The position numbers were made by a program, and so were the translations under genes. Shown one piece after another: positions 51,923 through 62,227 of a stretch of DNA of 64,000 nucleotides. The DNA lies in the IMG/VR virus record IMGVR_UViG_3300006990_000013, positions 1-64,000 of that record, one strand, 5' to 3'. Source of the stretch: a virus. The notes below the pieces were generated by a model. It was not told the origin of the DNA. It was given only the letters and a program-made list of their open reading frames with translations, and did not search any database. Numbering within the stretch: the stretch's first letter is position 1; each line of letters starts with the position of its first letter.

Positions 51923-51934
51923 TATTTATAAATA
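51923..51934. promoter_or_regulatory. Palindromic bidirectional late promoter
   Basis: TATTTATAAATA is a perfect palindrome that contains TATAAATA on both strands (51927-51934 plus, 51923-51930 minus). It could serve the EF-hand gene leftward and the small genes rightward. Confidence 0.65.
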
Positions 51935-51947
51935 GTCTTATTGGGTA

Positions 51948-51976
51948 TTGACAAGTATAAAAAAATGTCGTATAAT
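51948..51976 (+). promoter_or_regulatory. Sigma70-like promoter before small genes and tmRNA
   Basis: TTGACA, 17-bp spacer, TATAAT, 31 bp before ATG 52008. No other promoter is evident before the tmRNA. Confidence 0.8.
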
Positions 51977-52007
51977 AATGATGTAAAAACAAAATTGGAA
52001 ATGAAAT

Positions 52008-52181
52008 ATGTGGTTGTTAACACTAATTGCACTCGAACCTGTGGATGGTCATGTTTTGAATCCACATAAGATTTTAGGTTTCAAAGATGAAGAATCTTGT
52101 AAGGCTGTTTCCTCTATGGATGCAGTCTATGTAGACGGTGTTTACTGGAAGGTAGACGCACCCTGTTTAGATGTTTCATAG
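52008..52181 (+). CDS. Small protein, unknown
   Basis: 57 residues from ATG 52008 to TAG 52181. Short hydrophobic start (MWLLTLIAL), then a Cys pair (C37-like and C53-like positions). Not recognised. Confidence 0.6.
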   Translation: MWLLTLIALEPVDGHVLNPHKILGFKDEESCKAVSSMDAVYVDGVYWKVDAPCLDVS

Positions 52182-52193
52182 AAGGAAGATTAG

Positions 52194-52382
52194 ATGCAGA
52201 GAAATAGTAGACTACCAAGAAAACCTATGAACTCTGGTGATGAATGGGATGTGCTCACGGACGCACGTGAGTTCTACTGTTATACACAAAGATCTAAAGT
52301 TTGCAAAAAGATCAAGAAAGCGTATAACAAAAAAGAGCGCAAATGGTTAGACAAAGAATTCTTAGTCATGGACATGGACTAA
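52194..52382 (+). CDS. Small basic protein, unknown
   Basis: 62 residues, Lys/Arg-rich (RSKVCKKIKKAYNKKERKW), with GAAGGAAG before the ATG. It immediately precedes the tmRNA. Not recognised. Confidence 0.62.
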   Translation: MQRNSRLPRKPMNSGDEWDVLTDAREFYCYTQRSKVCKKIKKAYNKKERKWLDKEFLVMDMD

Positions 52383-52389
52383 GTAAAGA

Positions 52390-52675
52390 TGTAATTGTTG
52401 AAGCAAAGCGAATACGAACTGGACTGGGGGGCAGTACCCCACATCTCCACCATAAGCACATTCACTGAGTGTTTTTATGATGGGGATGAACTAGGATCGA
52501 CAGGCGGGCTAGTTGAGTGGAGATTACCGTGGTGACCTACGTTATTCGGTCAAAAACTATAAGTGCAAATGATAATTTCGCACCATCTGAGTTACGCCTA
52601 GCAGCGTAGCCGCAGGGGGTATGGGTTCCACCTAGCAACAGAAAGGGCCTGTTTTACATTTGGCATAAATATTTT
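52390..52675 (+). ncRNA. ssrA: Circularly permuted (two-piece) tmRNA
   Basis: The acceptor piece comes first: T-arm TGGGG/CCCCA (52425-52441) and 3' strand CATCTCC-A-CCA ending at 52452. After a 29-base spacer the coding piece begins GGGGATG (52482), pairing with CATCTCC, followed by GAACTAGGATCGACAGGC, a tmRNA hallmark. The tag frame 52565-52606 encodes ANDNFAPSELRLAA before TAG. Outer boundaries are approximate. Tags stalled proteins for proteolysis; permuted order is typical of alphaproteobacteria. Confidence 0.9.
52664..52671 (+). promoter_or_regulatory. Late promoter-like box for fibre-type genes
   Basis: CATAAATA, one mismatch from consensus, 45 bp before ATG 52716. A second CATAAATA lies near 53833, about 45 bp before the next paralogue. 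Confidence 0.55.
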
Positions 52676-56119: not shown

Positions 56120-57535
56120 ATGAAAATTAAAACTGAAAAAGAAAAACCAGATCTTATCGCTCTAAAAGATCATGATGCTGATGCGTATGCGTCTACTCCT
56201 CATGATTACTTCAAGAAGGGTGAACCTGATCTGAACTATATGTTAGATGAAGTCATCAAAGATAAAGGTGATTTCTTCTGCTCCCAGCCTTGGGTTCATA
56301 TGTACATGCCAACATATGGATTCCAGCATATTTGTTGTAATACAAGTATGAGTGTGAAGAAACATATTTCCCAAGCAACCTTTGAAGAACTTTACAACGA
56401 ACCAGAGTTCACCAAACTTCGTGAAGAGATGGTTGGTGGCCACAAGGATCGTGAAAGAACTCTGAAGACGTGTGTTAGATGTATTCAAACAGAACATCGT
56501 GGGTTTCCTTCCCTGCGAGAGTCCTATAATAGATCTGCAAACAGAAACACCCAAACAAAAGACGAGATGGGTAAACTCGTTAGTAAAGTCAAAGAAACTG
56601 GCGATGGGAATATTGGGCTACCAGAAAAACTTCACACGGTTGAACTCAAAGTGTGGGGAAACTATTGTAACCTTCAGTGTCTAATGTGTTCTGTAGAGGA
56701 CTCGTCTTCTGTTGCAGAAGAACAGATGGCACTGGGTGAGATAGATGCAAAGGGTATTAAAGAACGTGTAACATTGCGTACAGGTATTGAACCACCCTTT
56801 ACCCCACCTTTGATTCGATATCAAGACAACTACATCGATGAAGATCAGTACTGGGGCATTATTGATCGTGCAGTACGTATCAAACTTATCGGTGGAGAAA
56901 CTTTTCTTCAAAAACAAAATATTCAATTGTTAGAACATCTTGTCAAAACAGGCAAGGCGAAGGATAAAGAACTTATCATCTTCACAAACAACTATGGATA
57001 TCCACGTATGGAATACGTGCGAGACCTTCTACGCAACTTTAAATCAATTGCGTACAAATGTTCTATGGAGTTATGGGGTGAGAAGAATGATTACATTCGT
57101 TACCCATCAAAGTGGGATGAAGTACATCGTAACATGAAAATGATGGCGAAGATCCCTCAGTTACAAGTGTTGCCAACTTGCACACTAAATCCAATAACAA
57201 TAGGATATGTACATGAGATCATCGATGGGGCGGCACAGTTCTCAGATGTCATGCCAAACTTCTCATCTGTATCAAGACCAAAATGGTTTACTGCACACTG
57301 CATTCCAGATGATGTCGTGGATTTCTATCTGGACAGATATTATAGTCTACCGTACGAGATGATTCACCTTTGCACAAAGGCGATTGAAACTCTGGAACAA
57401 CGTGATTTCAAAGAAGACAAGTACAAGAAGATGATCAACCATATCACACGTAGAGATAAACATCGTAAAGATAACATCTTGAATTTCTTTCCAGAGTGGA
57501 AAAACCATTTCAAGGATCCTTATTATGATAATTGA
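56120..57535 (+). CDS. Radical SAM protein with N-terminal twitch-type Fe-S region
   Basis: 471 residues. WGNYCNLQCLMC (Cys183, 187, 190) is the CxxxCxxC site. Before it, Cys54, Cys72-73 and TCVRCIQTE (118/121) look like an auxiliary cluster, as in twitch-domain enzymes. Substrate unknown. Overlaps the next radical SAM gene by 11 bases. Confidence 0.82.
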   Translation: MKIKTEKEKPDLIALKDHDADAYASTPHDYFKKGEPDLNYMLDEVIKDKGDFFCSQPWVHMYMPTYGFQHICCNTSMSVKKHISQATFEELYNEPEFTKLREEMVGGHKDRERTLKTCVRCIQTEHRGFPSLRESYNRSANRNTQTKDEMGKLVSKVKETGDGNIGLPEKLHTVELKVWGNYCNLQCLMCSVEDSSSVAEEQMALGEIDAKGIKERVTLRTGIEPPFTPPLIRYQDNYIDEDQYWGIIDRAVRIKLIGGETFLQKQNIQLLEHLVKTGKAKDKELIIFTNNYGYPRMEYVRDLLRNFKSIAYKCSMELWGEKNDYIRYPSKWDEVHRNMKMMAKIPQLQVLPTCTLNPITIGYVHEIIDGAAQFSDVMPNFSSVSRPKWFTAHCIPDDVVDFYLDRYYSLPYEMIHLCTKAIETLEQRDFKEDKYKKMINHITRRDKHRKDNILNFFPEWKNHFKDPYYDN

Positions 57536-58568
57536 TAATCAGTTCAATTTAAAAAAGATGGACTCTGAGATTACTAATAGATGTAATGCTGCATGTACAT
57601 TGTGTCCACGTACGGGCACATATCCAGGCGGGTTGGGTAAAGAAGTTTATAACTCAGGCCCATTGGATATATCTCTGGATGTGATAGAAGAATGTCTTGG
57701 TTGGCCAATTAAGAAGTGGCAGTATTGTGGTAACTACGGTGATCCGATGGCCCATCCAAAGGTGTTTGACATTGCAGAGATGGTATCCAAATCTACAGTA
57801 GATGCACAACAGTTCGACACAAATGGTTCTATGAGATCCACTCAATTCTGGAAAGAGTTGGGTGGACTTCCTAATAATATGATAGTGAACTTTGCACTTG
57901 ATGGACTAAGTGATACAAACCACATCTACAGAACCAACACCAACTTCGAAAAGATCATTGAAAATGCAAAAGCATTCATGGCAGGTGGTGGTATTGCACG
58001 TTGGATCTTTATTGTTTTCAACCACAATGAACACCAAGTAGAAGAAGCCAGAGACATGGCAAGGAAACTTGGGTTTGATAACTTTGCTTTCAAAAAGACT
58101 TCTAGACAACTAGAAAAAGGTTCGACAACTGCAAAGAAAGAATATAAGAAGTCGTCAAAGTCTGAGACAGTTACCAAATCAGTAACTGCAACTAAGAGAC
58201 CAGAGTTCCAAGCGGATACGATCAAGAGAGGTGTTGTTGAACATGTTGTCTCTTGTAAGGCACTTGGACAGAAGAAAATGTATGTGACTCCAAAGGGACA
58301 ATTGATTCCCTGTTGTCACGTTCACCAAGATCTCTTTAAGAACGAATACAATCCAGAATTCCGTAGTAAGAACGATGAGATGAACTTCACAACTTGGCTG
58401 GATGAAAACAACGTCAAGTACGATCTCAATAAGTATACCATATTTGAAGTGATGAAGTCTTACAGAGAAAACCTTGACTCGATTGAAGACAGGTGGTTTA
58501 GAAGATCTTTACGTTCTTGTAATAAAAAGTGTGGGAGCAATCTAAGAAATGAAGTCGTTAATTATTGA
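57525..58568 (+). CDS. Radical SAM-SPASM protein
   Basis: 347 residues. NRCNAACTLCPRTG (Cys20, 24, 27) and SPASM-like Cys in VVSCKALG, IPCCHVHQD, and RSLRSCNKKCG. Single-chain counterpart of the split pair at 36806/37429. Probably modifies a peptide, carbohydrate or small molecule. Confidence 0.82.
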   Translation: MIIDNQFNLKKMDSEITNRCNAACTLCPRTGTYPGGLGKEVYNSGPLDISLDVIEECLGWPIKKWQYCGNYGDPMAHPKVFDIAEMVSKSTVDAQQFDTNGSMRSTQFWKELGGLPNNMIVNFALDGLSDTNHIYRTNTNFEKIIENAKAFMAGGGIARWIFIVFNHNEHQVEEARDMARKLGFDNFAFKKTSRQLEKGSTTAKKEYKKSSKSETVTKSVTATKRPEFQADTIKRGVVEHVVSCKALGQKKMYVTPKGQLIPCCHVHQDLFKNEYNPEFRSKNDEMNFTTWLDENNVKYDLNKYTIFEVMKSYRENLDSIEDRWFRRSLRSCNKKCGSNLRNEVVNY

Positions 58569-58662
58569 CTATTATTATAATATCAAAACATATTTTGTGG
58601 GTTGGTATTATAAAGTATCTAAGAAAGAAACTGATGATGAATTTATTTACGAGGATGATTAA
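58549..58662 (+). CDS. 37-residue ORF, unknown
   Basis: ATG 58549 overlaps the radical SAM end, and TAA 58660-58662 forms TAATG with the next gene. Aromatic (DYYYNIKTYFVGWYYKV), acidic tail. Real by context, function unknown. Confidence 0.5.
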   Translation: MKSLIIDYYYNIKTYFVGWYYKVSKKETDDEFIYEDD

Positions 58663-59378
58663 TGAGTCTTTTTGATCTGATCGAAGAAAAACGTAGACAC
58701 GTTAGAGAATATATGACAAAGGTGCCTCCAAGGGAAATTGTTGAGGACTGTCTATGGAAAGCGTGGAAAACATCTCCTTCTAAAAACAACTTCATGGCAT
58801 ATCGTGTGGACGTTTATGGGCCTGATAAACAAGAAGAGAAAGAGATTATCTGGAACCTTGTTCTGAAGAATCACATTCGTGCAGAAGAACGTGCACAACG
58901 AGATGGTAGAATAGAGTTTACTCAGAAGGGTGAACCAAATCCTTTCTACGAACATGTAAAACTCAATCCCTATTTGTTTGTTCTCCACAGTAGAGTGGCA
59001 AAGAAAGCGAATAGGTTCTACGCACATCAAATAGAAAGAGGTCACTTTGCAGATCAGATGTATCCAGATCTAGTCGAAAGACTGGTGGATTCTGTGGCAG
59101 TTGACTGTGGACTATTCTTATCTAACCTTACCGCTGCACTTCTGGAACACGACATAGACGTTTCTTACAATTCTTGTTTCCTCAGAGATCCCGCCATCTG
59201 GCGTTCTGCTGGACTTGATCATGTTGAGTATCGTCCTATCGTTATGATGAGTGCAGGGTACGCTGCAAAATATAGACACGAGTGCCTCACTGAATGGAAC
59301 ATGGATGGATGGGATGTTAAACCAGACATCGAAGAAGTTATAAAATGGGTGGGCGAAGATGTTACTAACACTGGGTGA
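58662..59378 (+). CDS. Nitroreductase-fold flavoprotein-like (3)
   Basis: 238 residues. KVPPREIVEDCLWKAWKTSPSKNNFMAYRVDVYGPD and VAVDCGLFLSNLTAALLEHDIDVSY. Paralogue of the gene at 60183. Overlaps the SGNH gene by 20 bases. Role unknown. Confidence 0.7.
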   Translation: MSLFDLIEEKRRHVREYMTKVPPREIVEDCLWKAWKTSPSKNNFMAYRVDVYGPDKQEEKEIIWNLVLKNHIRAEERAQRDGRIEFTQKGEPNPFYEHVKLNPYLFVLHSRVAKKANRFYAHQIERGHFADQMYPDLVERLVDSVAVDCGLFLSNLTAALLEHDIDVSYNSCFLRDPAIWRSAGLDHVEYRPIVMMSAGYAAKYRHECLTEWNMDGWDVKPDIEEVIKWVGEDVTNTG

Positions 59379-60171
59379 TAGTTTTACCGTAAAGAGATAT
59401 GACGGTGATAAACCTTGGTCTGAACAACTTGCAGAGAAACTGGGTATGGAATTACTCAATATATCTCACGAAGGCGAGTCCAACTCTTATATGTTCCGTA
59501 ATGCGATATGGGCATTGACAACACAAGATGTTGAACTATGTGTCATATCTCTGACAAACTGGGACAGGTTTGAACTTCCGTACTCAGACTATGGTCTAAA
59601 GGGTTCTGGAATGTACGACAGAACAAAAACATTTAAACCAAAAAACTGTTGGGATGAAGATAATCCCTATTCAAAGCTTTACATTGCATACTATTCTATG
59701 TTATACTACGTAGATACAACCTCTTCGTATATCATTGCGATTGACAACTTGTGTAAGGCAAAGGGCATTCCTCTGATCTTTACACAACCTCTGTTGCCTT
59801 TCAACGTGAGAATCAAGGCGGTTAAAACTGGAGAACTGGACTTTTTGTTTTCAAAGAATATGAATGCTATGGGTGAAGACTACATTGAAAATATTTCGTT
59901 GTTCCGTCATGTTGATAAATCACTATTCTGCATGTTCAAACCAACTGCGCAAACAATACTCTTTGGTAAGGAAGATGGTATATCTGAAAAGACTTACGAC
60001 AACATGTTCAGTTTCTTCACAAGGAACCATCCAGAATATGTGATGGGTTATCATAATAAATACATTTATAAAGGTGGGCAGGCTTTTAGAAAATCATGGG
60101 ATGGTCATCCTAATTTGAAAGGTCACCAAATGATATCTAATATTGTTTATGATCACTATATGAATATGTAA
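59359..60171 (+). CDS. SGNH/GDSL-like hydrolase
   Basis: 270 residues. Block I LTLGDSFT (Ser) at the N-terminus and DGHPNLKGHQMI (Asp, His) near the end give the catalytic set. Could remove or transfer acyl groups on a glycan. Sits between two nitroreductase-like genes. Confidence 0.78.
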   Translation: MLLTLGDSFTVKRYDGDKPWSEQLAEKLGMELLNISHEGESNSYMFRNAIWALTTQDVELCVISLTNWDRFELPYSDYGLKGSGMYDRTKTFKPKNCWDEDNPYSKLYIAYYSMLYYVDTTSSYIIAIDNLCKAKGIPLIFTQPLLPFNVRIKAVKTGELDFLFSKNMNAMGEDYIENISLFRHVDKSLFCMFKPTAQTILFGKEDGISEKTYDNMFSFFTRNHPEYVMGYHNKYIYKGGQAFRKSWDGHPNLKGHQMISNIVYDHYMNM

Positions 60172-60182
60172 AGGAGAACTAC

Positions 60183-60887
60183 ATGTCTGTTGCAACAACG
60201 TATGCAGATCGAAATCAAACACGTTACTTTGATCAAAACGAAGTTCCTGATAAAGAACTAATTGAAAAGTGTCTACTCAAGACTCATGAAATTGTCATGT
60301 CAAAACAGAACTTGATGCCGTATCAGTGCCATATTTTTGGCCCTGATGATTATGATATCAAAAGACGGTTCTATGAACTGGCAAGTACGGTAGAGTACGC
60401 TGATCCTGAGAAGAGACAGTTCTACCGAATGGAGAGATTAGAGAAACATGAACGTTTCTTTGATAAACAAAAAAGATTCCCGAATGGTAACAGTCAATTG
60501 TTTGCGCCGTGGGTTCTTGTATTCTCACCACGTAAACCAAAACCAAACAAACTAGTTCAAGACTACCTTGAAGGTCAACACGAGATGAACTATGAGGACA
60601 TCAAAAACTATGACAGTGGTGCATCCAAGATGGAGATTGGGATGTTCGCTGCGTTGTTGGGTGGTGTATGTGTAGATGAGGGTCTGAATGTTAGTTACAC
60701 TGGGTGTATCAACTCACGTGCATTGGTCGAAGAGTTTACATGGTGTAAGTCACAACCTGCAATTTCAGTAAGTATTGGGTATCCCCATACTGAACTTAAT
60801 GATCGTTACCTTTATAATAAAGTATTCTTCAAAAACAAAGGTGAAGATAAACCTAAGCCGGAAGAAATATTTCACTGGATGGATTAA
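60183..60887 (+). CDS. Nitroreductase-fold flavoprotein-like (4)
   Basis: 234 residues after AGGAG. EVPDKELIEKCLLKTHEIVMSKQNLMPYQCHIFGPD and SKMEIGMFAALLGGVCVDEGLNVSYTGC. Most like copy 3 (PSKNN/MSKQN, then shared VSYNSC/VSYTGC). Confidence 0.7.
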   Translation: MSVATTYADRNQTRYFDQNEVPDKELIEKCLLKTHEIVMSKQNLMPYQCHIFGPDDYDIKRRFYELASTVEYADPEKRQFYRMERLEKHERFFDKQKRFPNGNSQLFAPWVLVFSPRKPKPNKLVQDYLEGQHEMNYEDIKNYDSGASKMEIGMFAALLGGVCVDEGLNVSYTGCINSRALVEEFTWCKSQPAISVSIGYPHTELNDRYLYNKVFFKNKGEDKPKPEEIFHWMD

Positions 60888-60889
60888 AA

Positions 60890-62227
60890 ATGTTTGATGT
60901 GGTAACTGGAATCTCAGAAGGATTCCATGACGCCTGTAAGACTATTATCAAAGATGGTAAGATTGTCTATGCAGGTCATGCGGAAAGATATTCTCGCATA
61001 AAGAATGATAAACACCTACACCCTGATATGCCTGAGACAGAAGGTGTAACTGTATTTTATGAAAAACCTTTCCTAAAAAATACCAGAAGATTATATGCAG
61101 GTCAGTCTTGGAAGAAACGTGGTAAGTATGACTTCACGGTTCCCCATCACTGGTCACATGCGTCTGCAGCTTATTACACTCGTCCCTTTGCTTTAAAGGA
61201 ACCAGTCTGCGTTGTTATTGATGCGATTGGTGAGTGGGACACTGCATCTATCTGGTGGAGAAAGAAAAAGGTTTGGAGTATGAAGTACCCTACATCACTG
61301 GGACTTTTCTACTCTGCGATAACACGTCACATTGGACTTAAACCAAATGAAGACGAGTTTATCACAATGTGTCTCGCAGCGATGGGTGACAGAAACAAAT
61401 ATGACTTCGATCCCTATCTGTACTATCACAAGGGATATGACTTTGGTAAGGGTCGTAAAGAAGATATCGCCGCATCCGCCCAAAGAATACTTGAAGACGA
61501 AATCCTGAAGATCATGGAGAAAGCACGTTCTTACTCTCCTTATCTTTGTTATGGTGGTGGGGTTGCACTAAACTGTGTTGCGAACACAAAAATTAAAAAA
61601 ATGTTTGATGATATGTGGATCTTCCCAAACCCATCAGATGGTGGTAGTTCTTTGGGTGCAGCGATATCTGCACTAGACCTTGGCCCGTACAGAACGTTGC
61701 AGATTGATAACATGTTCCTTGGACATGAAATAAAAGGCGAATTAGATGTTGCCAAAGTGGTACAAAATCTGGTACAATATAAAACATGTGGAGTAGCAAA
61801 TGGTAAAGCAGAATTTGGCCCTCGTGCTCTTGGTAATCGTTCTCTCTTGGCCGATCCTAGAGTGGACAATATCAAGGACGTGGTTAATAAGGTTAAAAAT
61901 AGACAAGGTTATAGACCGTTTTCGCCAGCGATACTAGAAGAATATGCGTCTGAGTATTTTACTGGCCCTATGAATGAGTACATGCAATATGTCTCTCATG
62001 CGGAACATGATTACCAAGGGGTGATGCATGTTGATGGTACGTCTAGAGTCCAAGTCGTTAAAGACGATGGAAGCAACATGCGTAGAGTCCTAGAAGCGTG
62101 GTATGAAAAAACTAAATGCCCTATGTTACTAAACACATCACTTAACATAAAGGGTAAACCTATCGTGAATAATGAACGAGATGCAAAAGAATTTGAAAAG
62201 GTAACAAAGGTTCCAGTAGTAACATGA
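60890..62227 (+). CDS. NodU/CmcH-type carbamoyltransferase
   Basis: 445 residues. HHWSHASAAYYTRPF (metal-binding His), YGGGVALNCVANTKI, GKAEFGPRALGNRSLLADPR and YRPFSPAIL are signature motifs. Transfers carbamoyl to a hydroxyl; Nod factor 6-O-carbamoylation by NodU is the model. Slightly shorter than NodU (about 560). ATGA overlap with the next gene. Confidence 0.88.
   Translation: MFDVVTGISEGFHDACKTIIKDGKIVYAGHAERYSRIKNDKHLHPDMPETEGVTVFYEKPFLKNTRRLYAGQSWKKRGKYDFTVPHHWSHASAAYYTRPFALKEPVCVVIDAIGEWDTASIWWRKKKVWSMKYPTSLGLFYSAITRHIGLKPNEDEFITMCLAAMGDRNKYDFDPYLYYHKGYDFGKGRKEDIAASAQRILEDEILKIMEKARSYSPYLCYGGGVALNCVANTKIKKMFDDMWIFPNPSDGGSSLGAAISALDLGPYRTLQIDNMFLGHEIKGELDVAKVVQNLVQYKTCGVANGKAEFGPRALGNRSLLADPRVDNIKDVVNKVKNRQGYRPFSPAILEEYASEYFTGPMNEYMQYVSHAEHDYQGVMHVDGTSRVQVVKDDGSNMRRVLEAWYEKTKCPMLLNTSLNIKGKPIVNNERDAKEFEKVTKVPVVT

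Follow-up and report, generated by a model that had tools for sequence, protein, structure and literature searches.

Does a T4-like phage carry a genuine tmRNA of the permuted two-piece type, and, if so, what would such an RNA do during infection? The question was raised by the window, namely the whole stretch of 64,000 nucleotides analyzed here (positions 1 to 64,000 of IMG/VR record IMGVR_UViG_3300006990_000013, a virus record of 117,770 bases), for which the original prediction had proposed a permuted two-piece tmRNA in the alphaproteobacterial order and had suggested an alpha-tmRNA covariance search. The search indeed found matches: the window scored 105.9 bits against RF01849 (52344-52653, E 6.6e-28; cut-off 50) and 116.5 bits against RF04321 (52390-52609, E 4.6e-22; cut-off 47), and the acceptor piece precedes the coding piece. 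The gene is, therefore, confirmed as a circularly permuted two-piece tmRNA of the alphaproteobacterial type. Its RF01849 score is far below those of the bacterial genes fetched (143-313 bits) because of its divergence and the shortened segment following the tag. The parts of the gene are as follows:

52388..52452, plus strand: acceptor piece with the 5' strand of P2 (covariance models and covariation; predicted 5' end)
52425-52441, plus strand: T-arm in the acceptor piece, with the loop GGCAGTA (covariance model, covariation)
52442-52448, plus strand: acceptor 3' strand CATCTCC, followed by the encoded ACCA at 52449-52452
52453..52481, plus strand: intervening segment of 29 nt, presumably removed as in known two-piece tmRNAs (PMC3985003)
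52482..52650, plus strand: coding piece (covariance models and covariation; predicted 3' end), with, in order, the acceptor 5' strand GGGGATG (52482-52488), the D-region, the 3' strand of P2, PK1, the tag frame, and the 3' pseudoknot
52528..52552, plus strand: PK1 (52528-31/52538-41 and 52533-37/52548-52), drawn from the window sequence
52565..52609, plus strand: tag reading frame ANDNFAPSELRLAA with the resume codon GCA and the stop codon TAG (reading of the sequence, relatives)
52614..52650, plus strand: 3' pseudoknot around the conserved AGCAACAGAA, with its stem at 52623-52628/52645-52650 in the window phage

The gene order is hence that of alphaproteobacteria, with the acceptor end ...CATCTCC-A-CCA, CCA being encoded, upstream of GGGGATG. 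These two acceptor strands pair at 7 of 7 positions, including G3-U70, which is the alanine identity pair. The frame read as ANDNFAPSELRLAA and closed by TAG also stood as predicted; it starts with an alanine resume codon and ends with a hydrophobic -AA degron. In contrast, the T-loop GGCAGTA, which had been regarded as a departure from the usual form, is what alpha-type tmRNAs ordinarily have: RF01849 has GGCgGUA as its consensus there, and nearly all of the viral and bacterial alpha-type relatives have either GGCAGTA or GGCGGTA. The oddity of the T-loop was accordingly rejected. ARAGORN did not call the tmRNA of the window, while it called the homologue with the same tag in a sister phage, L073. 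Among the matches listed, furthermore, ARAGORN called a tmRNA in 75 of the 124 viral loci with the permuted-tmRNA pattern or a model match (L002-L120 and L215-L220), and surveys based on ARAGORN probably undercount phage tmRNAs.

The phage was predicted to be T4-like, and this is borne out by the presence of gp43, gp46/gp47, UvsW, a gp5-like baseplate hub lysozyme, the tube cap, gp32, and UvsX; its gp43 is 44% identical to those of cyanomyoviruses. A T4-type portal or major capsid protein gave no model match in the 117.8-kb record, which is possibly incomplete, in a search run without a positive control. The RNA families above threshold in the window were tmRNA and tRNA and no other, with four tRNA genes (Arg, Pro, Trp, and Gly). 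SmpB was not detected in the record, and the phage tmRNA would thus use SmpB of the host. Through gp43, 47 partial records were retrieved, and six of them had a permuted tmRNA, which lay a few kb from gp43 where coordinates were compared; L073, added on account of its tmRNA, is outside this count. A single common tmRNA locus among these relatives was rejected, as its place varies between phages. Separately, the genes at 56120-62227 and in L226-L228 encode radical SAM proteins, two Nol-like carbamoyltransferases, an aminotransferase, a cytidyltransferase, glycosyltransferases, and a sulfotransferase-like protein, which looks like a set for glycan or small-molecule modification by the phage.

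Is the RNA maintained as a structure? The minimum free energy of the precursor was only mildly below that of shuffled sequences (z -2.2), and the case for the structure thus rests on covariation. We aligned 40 distinct viral relatives, taken from among the matches listed and found mostly through one DNA pattern that matched at least 119 viral stretches, and the hand-drawn structure was counted against shuffles and against the same structure slid along the alignment. Paired cells amounted to 83.5%, compared with 63.7% in shuffles and 35.8-46.0% upon sliding; cells with two-sided changes numbered 337 against 126 in shuffles, and the covariation score was 0.502 against 0.155 (shuffled) and at most 0.132 (slid). 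Well supported by covariation were the outer P2 helix (five pairs), the T-stem, and the 3' stem, and in the region of this 3' stem, 84% of cells were paired, with two-sided changes in 7 of 7 pairs across the 40 sequences. PK1 forms in the window sequence, but only 42-62% of its cells were paired across the relatives, which are poorly aligned there. While G3-U70 was kept in all of the 40 relatives, the search pattern forced it for nearly all of them, and the invariance of GGGG/CTCC, largely imposed by that pattern, was excluded from the evidence.

The tag frame is conserved as a peptide, because its variation falls mainly on third codon positions and the same peptides have alternative encodings: across 30 distinct tag sequences of 14 codons, entropy averaged 0.37 bits at the first codon position, 0.41 at the second, and 1.16 at the third, and for seven of the tag peptides there are two or three distinct coding sequences each. 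These patterns suggest that tmRNA function is maintained in phages, and comparison with relatives places structure and tag under strong selection. They also bear on the idea that the phage RNA is a decoy titrating SmpB or AlaRS and thereby lowering trans-translation of the host, as is reported for the tag-less tmRNA-like RNA of phage DS6A. That form indeed inhibits E. coli tmRNA (PMC11915505), but a decoy has no need of a tag, and the tag frame in the window is intact and under peptide-level selection; we thus regard a decoy as very unlikely. As a separate observation, codon 12 of the viral 14-codon tags (Leu before the final Ala-Ala) is nearly always CTA, with only 0.21 bits at its third position, whereas the third positions of the following two codons vary freely.

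Comparison with L073, which has homologous sequence on both flanks of its tmRNA, points in the same direction. Over the stretch that begins with the acceptor piece and ends at the tag stop, the RNAs of the window and L073 are 91.4% identical, whereas two downstream genes, of 61 and 317 aa, reach 73.7% and 61.8%, respectively. Both phages encode the same tag peptide despite two synonymous changes and a TAG versus TAA stop. Function therefore appears to have been maintained, given the same tag despite synonymous changes and an RNA more conserved than the neighboring genes. This is hardly expected of a passenger picked up recently from a host genome and playing no role in the phage, even though tmRNA genes are integration sites of prophages and ssrA fragments occur in prophage genomes (PMC9004378). 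Indeed, when the cores of alpha-type tmRNAs from 50 viral and 70 bacterial loci were placed in a tree (196 columns), the viral and bacterial labels were split across one branch (95/92; 94% of bootstrap trees), and the window stood beside L073, L061, and L046, all of which are viral. Together with the synteny in L073 and the dedicated promoters of viral tmRNAs described below, this leaves only the slimmest chance for a passenger. The tree left out 33 bacterial loci that did not fit the parser, and its viral loci came mostly through the one DNA pattern, from among the matches listed; the separate viral branch of alpha-type tmRNA is hence a lead rather than proof.

The viral RNAs are shorter in the 3' domain as well. 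From the tag stop to the end of ACAGAA, the distance in viruses is about 34 nt, mostly 31-47 (three larger values were probably mis-parsed), versus mostly 74-81 nt in bacteria, with five values at 38-45. The separation of the sampled viral alpha-type tmRNAs from the 70 bacterial ones and their shorter post-tag segment look new.

The tags themselves raise another alternative: the phage tag might replace that of the host and alter the fate of tagged proteins, for example by degradation of host proteins for amino acids or by the preference of another adaptor or protease. Such redirection had been suggested in the original prediction, and amino-acid recycling is proposed in PMC9004378. In its favor, many viral tags are of a different length and have different residues in the middle, and an exact-codon pattern for ANDNFAPSE and part of the next codon (GCA resume required) hit none of 84,980 bacterial/archaeal species genomes; a looser tag pattern (GCA resume required) hit one MAG, with the tag ANDNFAPVELRAVA. 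Assignment of a host from the tag was rejected on these same scans. The window tag nonetheless keeps the ANDN front and the -LAA end as bacterial tags do, and tags are not always phage-specific: ANESYALAA is shared by a viral locus, L067, and a bacterial one, L317. Since the degron has the usual ANDN...LAA form, ordinary tagging is more plausible than an altered fate, and we consider retagging improbable. Among bacteria, we also noted unusual and very long predicted tags in six alphaproteobacterial loci (L264, L279, L313, L319, L322, and L325), with 24-38 residues and, in many cases, a high content of Arg/Asn or Asn/Ala.

How is the gene expressed? We inspected the upstream regions of 87 distinct viral tmRNA loci from among the matches listed. 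In 55 of the 87, a promoter of the sigma70 type (10 or more of 12 matches) has its -10 element just before the start of the acceptor piece, whereas random positions in these contigs, scored identically, gave 1.3%. The exact T4 late motif TATAAATA was located at the start of the acceptor piece in 37 of these 87 loci, compared with 0.3% at random positions and 0 of 76 bacterial tmRNAs. A perfect TTGACA was present upstream in 30 of the 37, giving TTGACA-N17-TATAAATA, and the spacing was 17 bases in 35 of the 37; at other TATAAATA sites of the same contigs, a perfect TTGACA was so placed in only 3 of 182. TATAAA is also usable as a plain sigma70 -10 element, and for this reason we only infer the late reading, which is favored in that 34 of the listed promoters have TATAAATA in full. 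For RB49 and S-PM2, an overlap of early and late promoters has been put forward as the basis of middle-mode expression (PMC2984593). The composite promoter TTGACA-N17-TATAAATA at the start of the acceptor piece looks new; no description of it or of the separate viral branch was found in the openly searchable literature.

The window phage differs from the loci with the composite promoter in that it has TATAAT as the -10 element and a late motif apart from it, both lying at a distance from the tmRNA:

51923..51934, both strands: TATTTATAAATA, with the T4 late-promoter motif TATAAATA on each strand; also upstream of the L073 tmRNA
51948..51976, plus strand: sigma70-type promoter TTGACA-N17-TATAAT, 12 of 12 matches (promoter listing, L073 comparison)
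51987..52379, plus strand: insert of about 393 bp between promoter and tmRNA, absent from L073
52008-52181 and 52194-52382, plus strand: small ORFs in the insert (57 and 62 aa), with no Pfam match
52664..52671, plus strand: CATAAATA, a late-type motif before the downstream 61-aa gene; the same in L073

In L073, the promoter is TTGACA-N17-TATAAG with a largely different spacer and adjoins the tmRNA, and TATTTATAAATAG lies farther upstream. The element at 51948..51976 is the probable promoter of the tmRNA transcript in the window. As the listing has no promoter-like site on the plus strand from 51977 up to the tmRNA, the tmRNA would probably be the end of a transcript from this promoter, with a 5' end in need of processing. 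A partial repeat occurs at both edges of the insert (TAATAATGATGTAA on the left and TAAGTAAAGATGTAA on the right), which may reflect the arrival of the insert. The late motif of S-PM2 is NATAAATA (PMC2984593).

We are quite confident that the window encodes a genuine phage two-piece tmRNA performing ordinary trans-translation with host proteins and freeing ribosomes during infection, and we infer the following course. The host-type promoter would give a precursor transcript, from which cleavage, probably due to RNase P and the 3' tRNA nucleases of the host, would release the acceptor piece with its encoded CCA and the coding piece; the two pieces would be held together by the acceptor stem and P2. 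Host AlaRS would charge the RNA via G3-U70, and host SmpB and EF-Tu would deliver it to stalled ribosomes, which resume on GCA and append ANDNFAPSELRLAA, with the -LAA end leading to ClpXP-type proteolysis. The fit of the phage RNA with SmpB, AlaRS, and ClpXP of the host is assumed. As messages are degraded in infection, ribosome recycling could be sustained for phage translation alongside the phage tRNAs. In T4 infection, host SsrA is stable while host tRNAs are degraded, and the authors suggested a need for rescue (PMC9697503).

More tentatively, and with slightly less than even confidence, we propose that the two-piece tmRNAs of T4-like phages form a long-lived lineage of their own, separate from the bacterial alpha tmRNAs sampled, in which the 3' domain is shortened, most tags are specific to phages, and the composite promoter is frequent; this promoter might be read by both the sigma70 polymerase of the host and the phage late machinery, its start site would set the 5' end of the acceptor piece, and rescue would thereby be supplied throughout infection. 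The comparative result turns a single-phage curiosity into a common, regulated phage gene, and phages with their own rescue RNA offer a test of whether trans-translation limits infection as messages are degraded.

Among known systems, phage-borne tmRNAs also occur in other phage groups, namely mycobacteriophages of cluster C, Bradyrhizobium elkanii phages (PMC12656738), and Sinorhizobium phage Phosso. The Phosso tmRNA (PV764938.1; L216, 2538-3140) is permuted but unannotated, with the tag ANDNVSTKVALAA and an unusually long intervening segment of 410 nt. With the alpha_tmRNA family RF01849 (Caulobacter), the window shares the gene order, the acceptor stem with G3-U70, the T-loop GGCAGTA/GGCGGTA, the conserved AGGATCGAC and GCAACAGAA elements, and a tag of the ANDN...LAA type. 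Alphaproteobacterial tmRNAs differ from it in the tag, most commonly of 12 residues in the bacterial sample versus 14 in the window, and in the longer segment from the tag stop to ACAGAA; the promoter of the window is, moreover, of a phage type.

Also among the nearest systems are Methylophilales phage Melnitz and marine T4-like phages related to it, in which, as in the window, a permuted alpha-type tmRNA is carried by a T4-like phage. The Melnitz tag is ANDNYVPVDYALAA instead of ANDNFAPSELRLAA, its genomic place is different, and its intervening segment is 142 nt instead of 29 nt, the latter length being shared by L073. Melnitz has a glutamine riboswitch (PMC9004378), whereas none was above threshold in the window, and its promoter, the TTGACA-N17-TATAAATA composite, is at the gene start, whereas the insert separates promoter and tmRNA in the window phage. 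In the Melnitz paper, the promoter is called early, and the suggested roles are to maintain translation or to tag host proteins (PMC9004378); the composite early/late promoter questions this published guess of early action. The rarity implied by the original prediction was overstated, given the 53 two-piece tmRNAs counted in phage genomes in that paper and at least 119 viral stretches matching one DNA pattern here; also, 79 unique phage tmRNAs are reported in the source of the RF04321 model (PMC11915505). Phage two-piece tmRNAs have thus already been published with Melnitz (PMC9004378), and the gene in the window adds one more.
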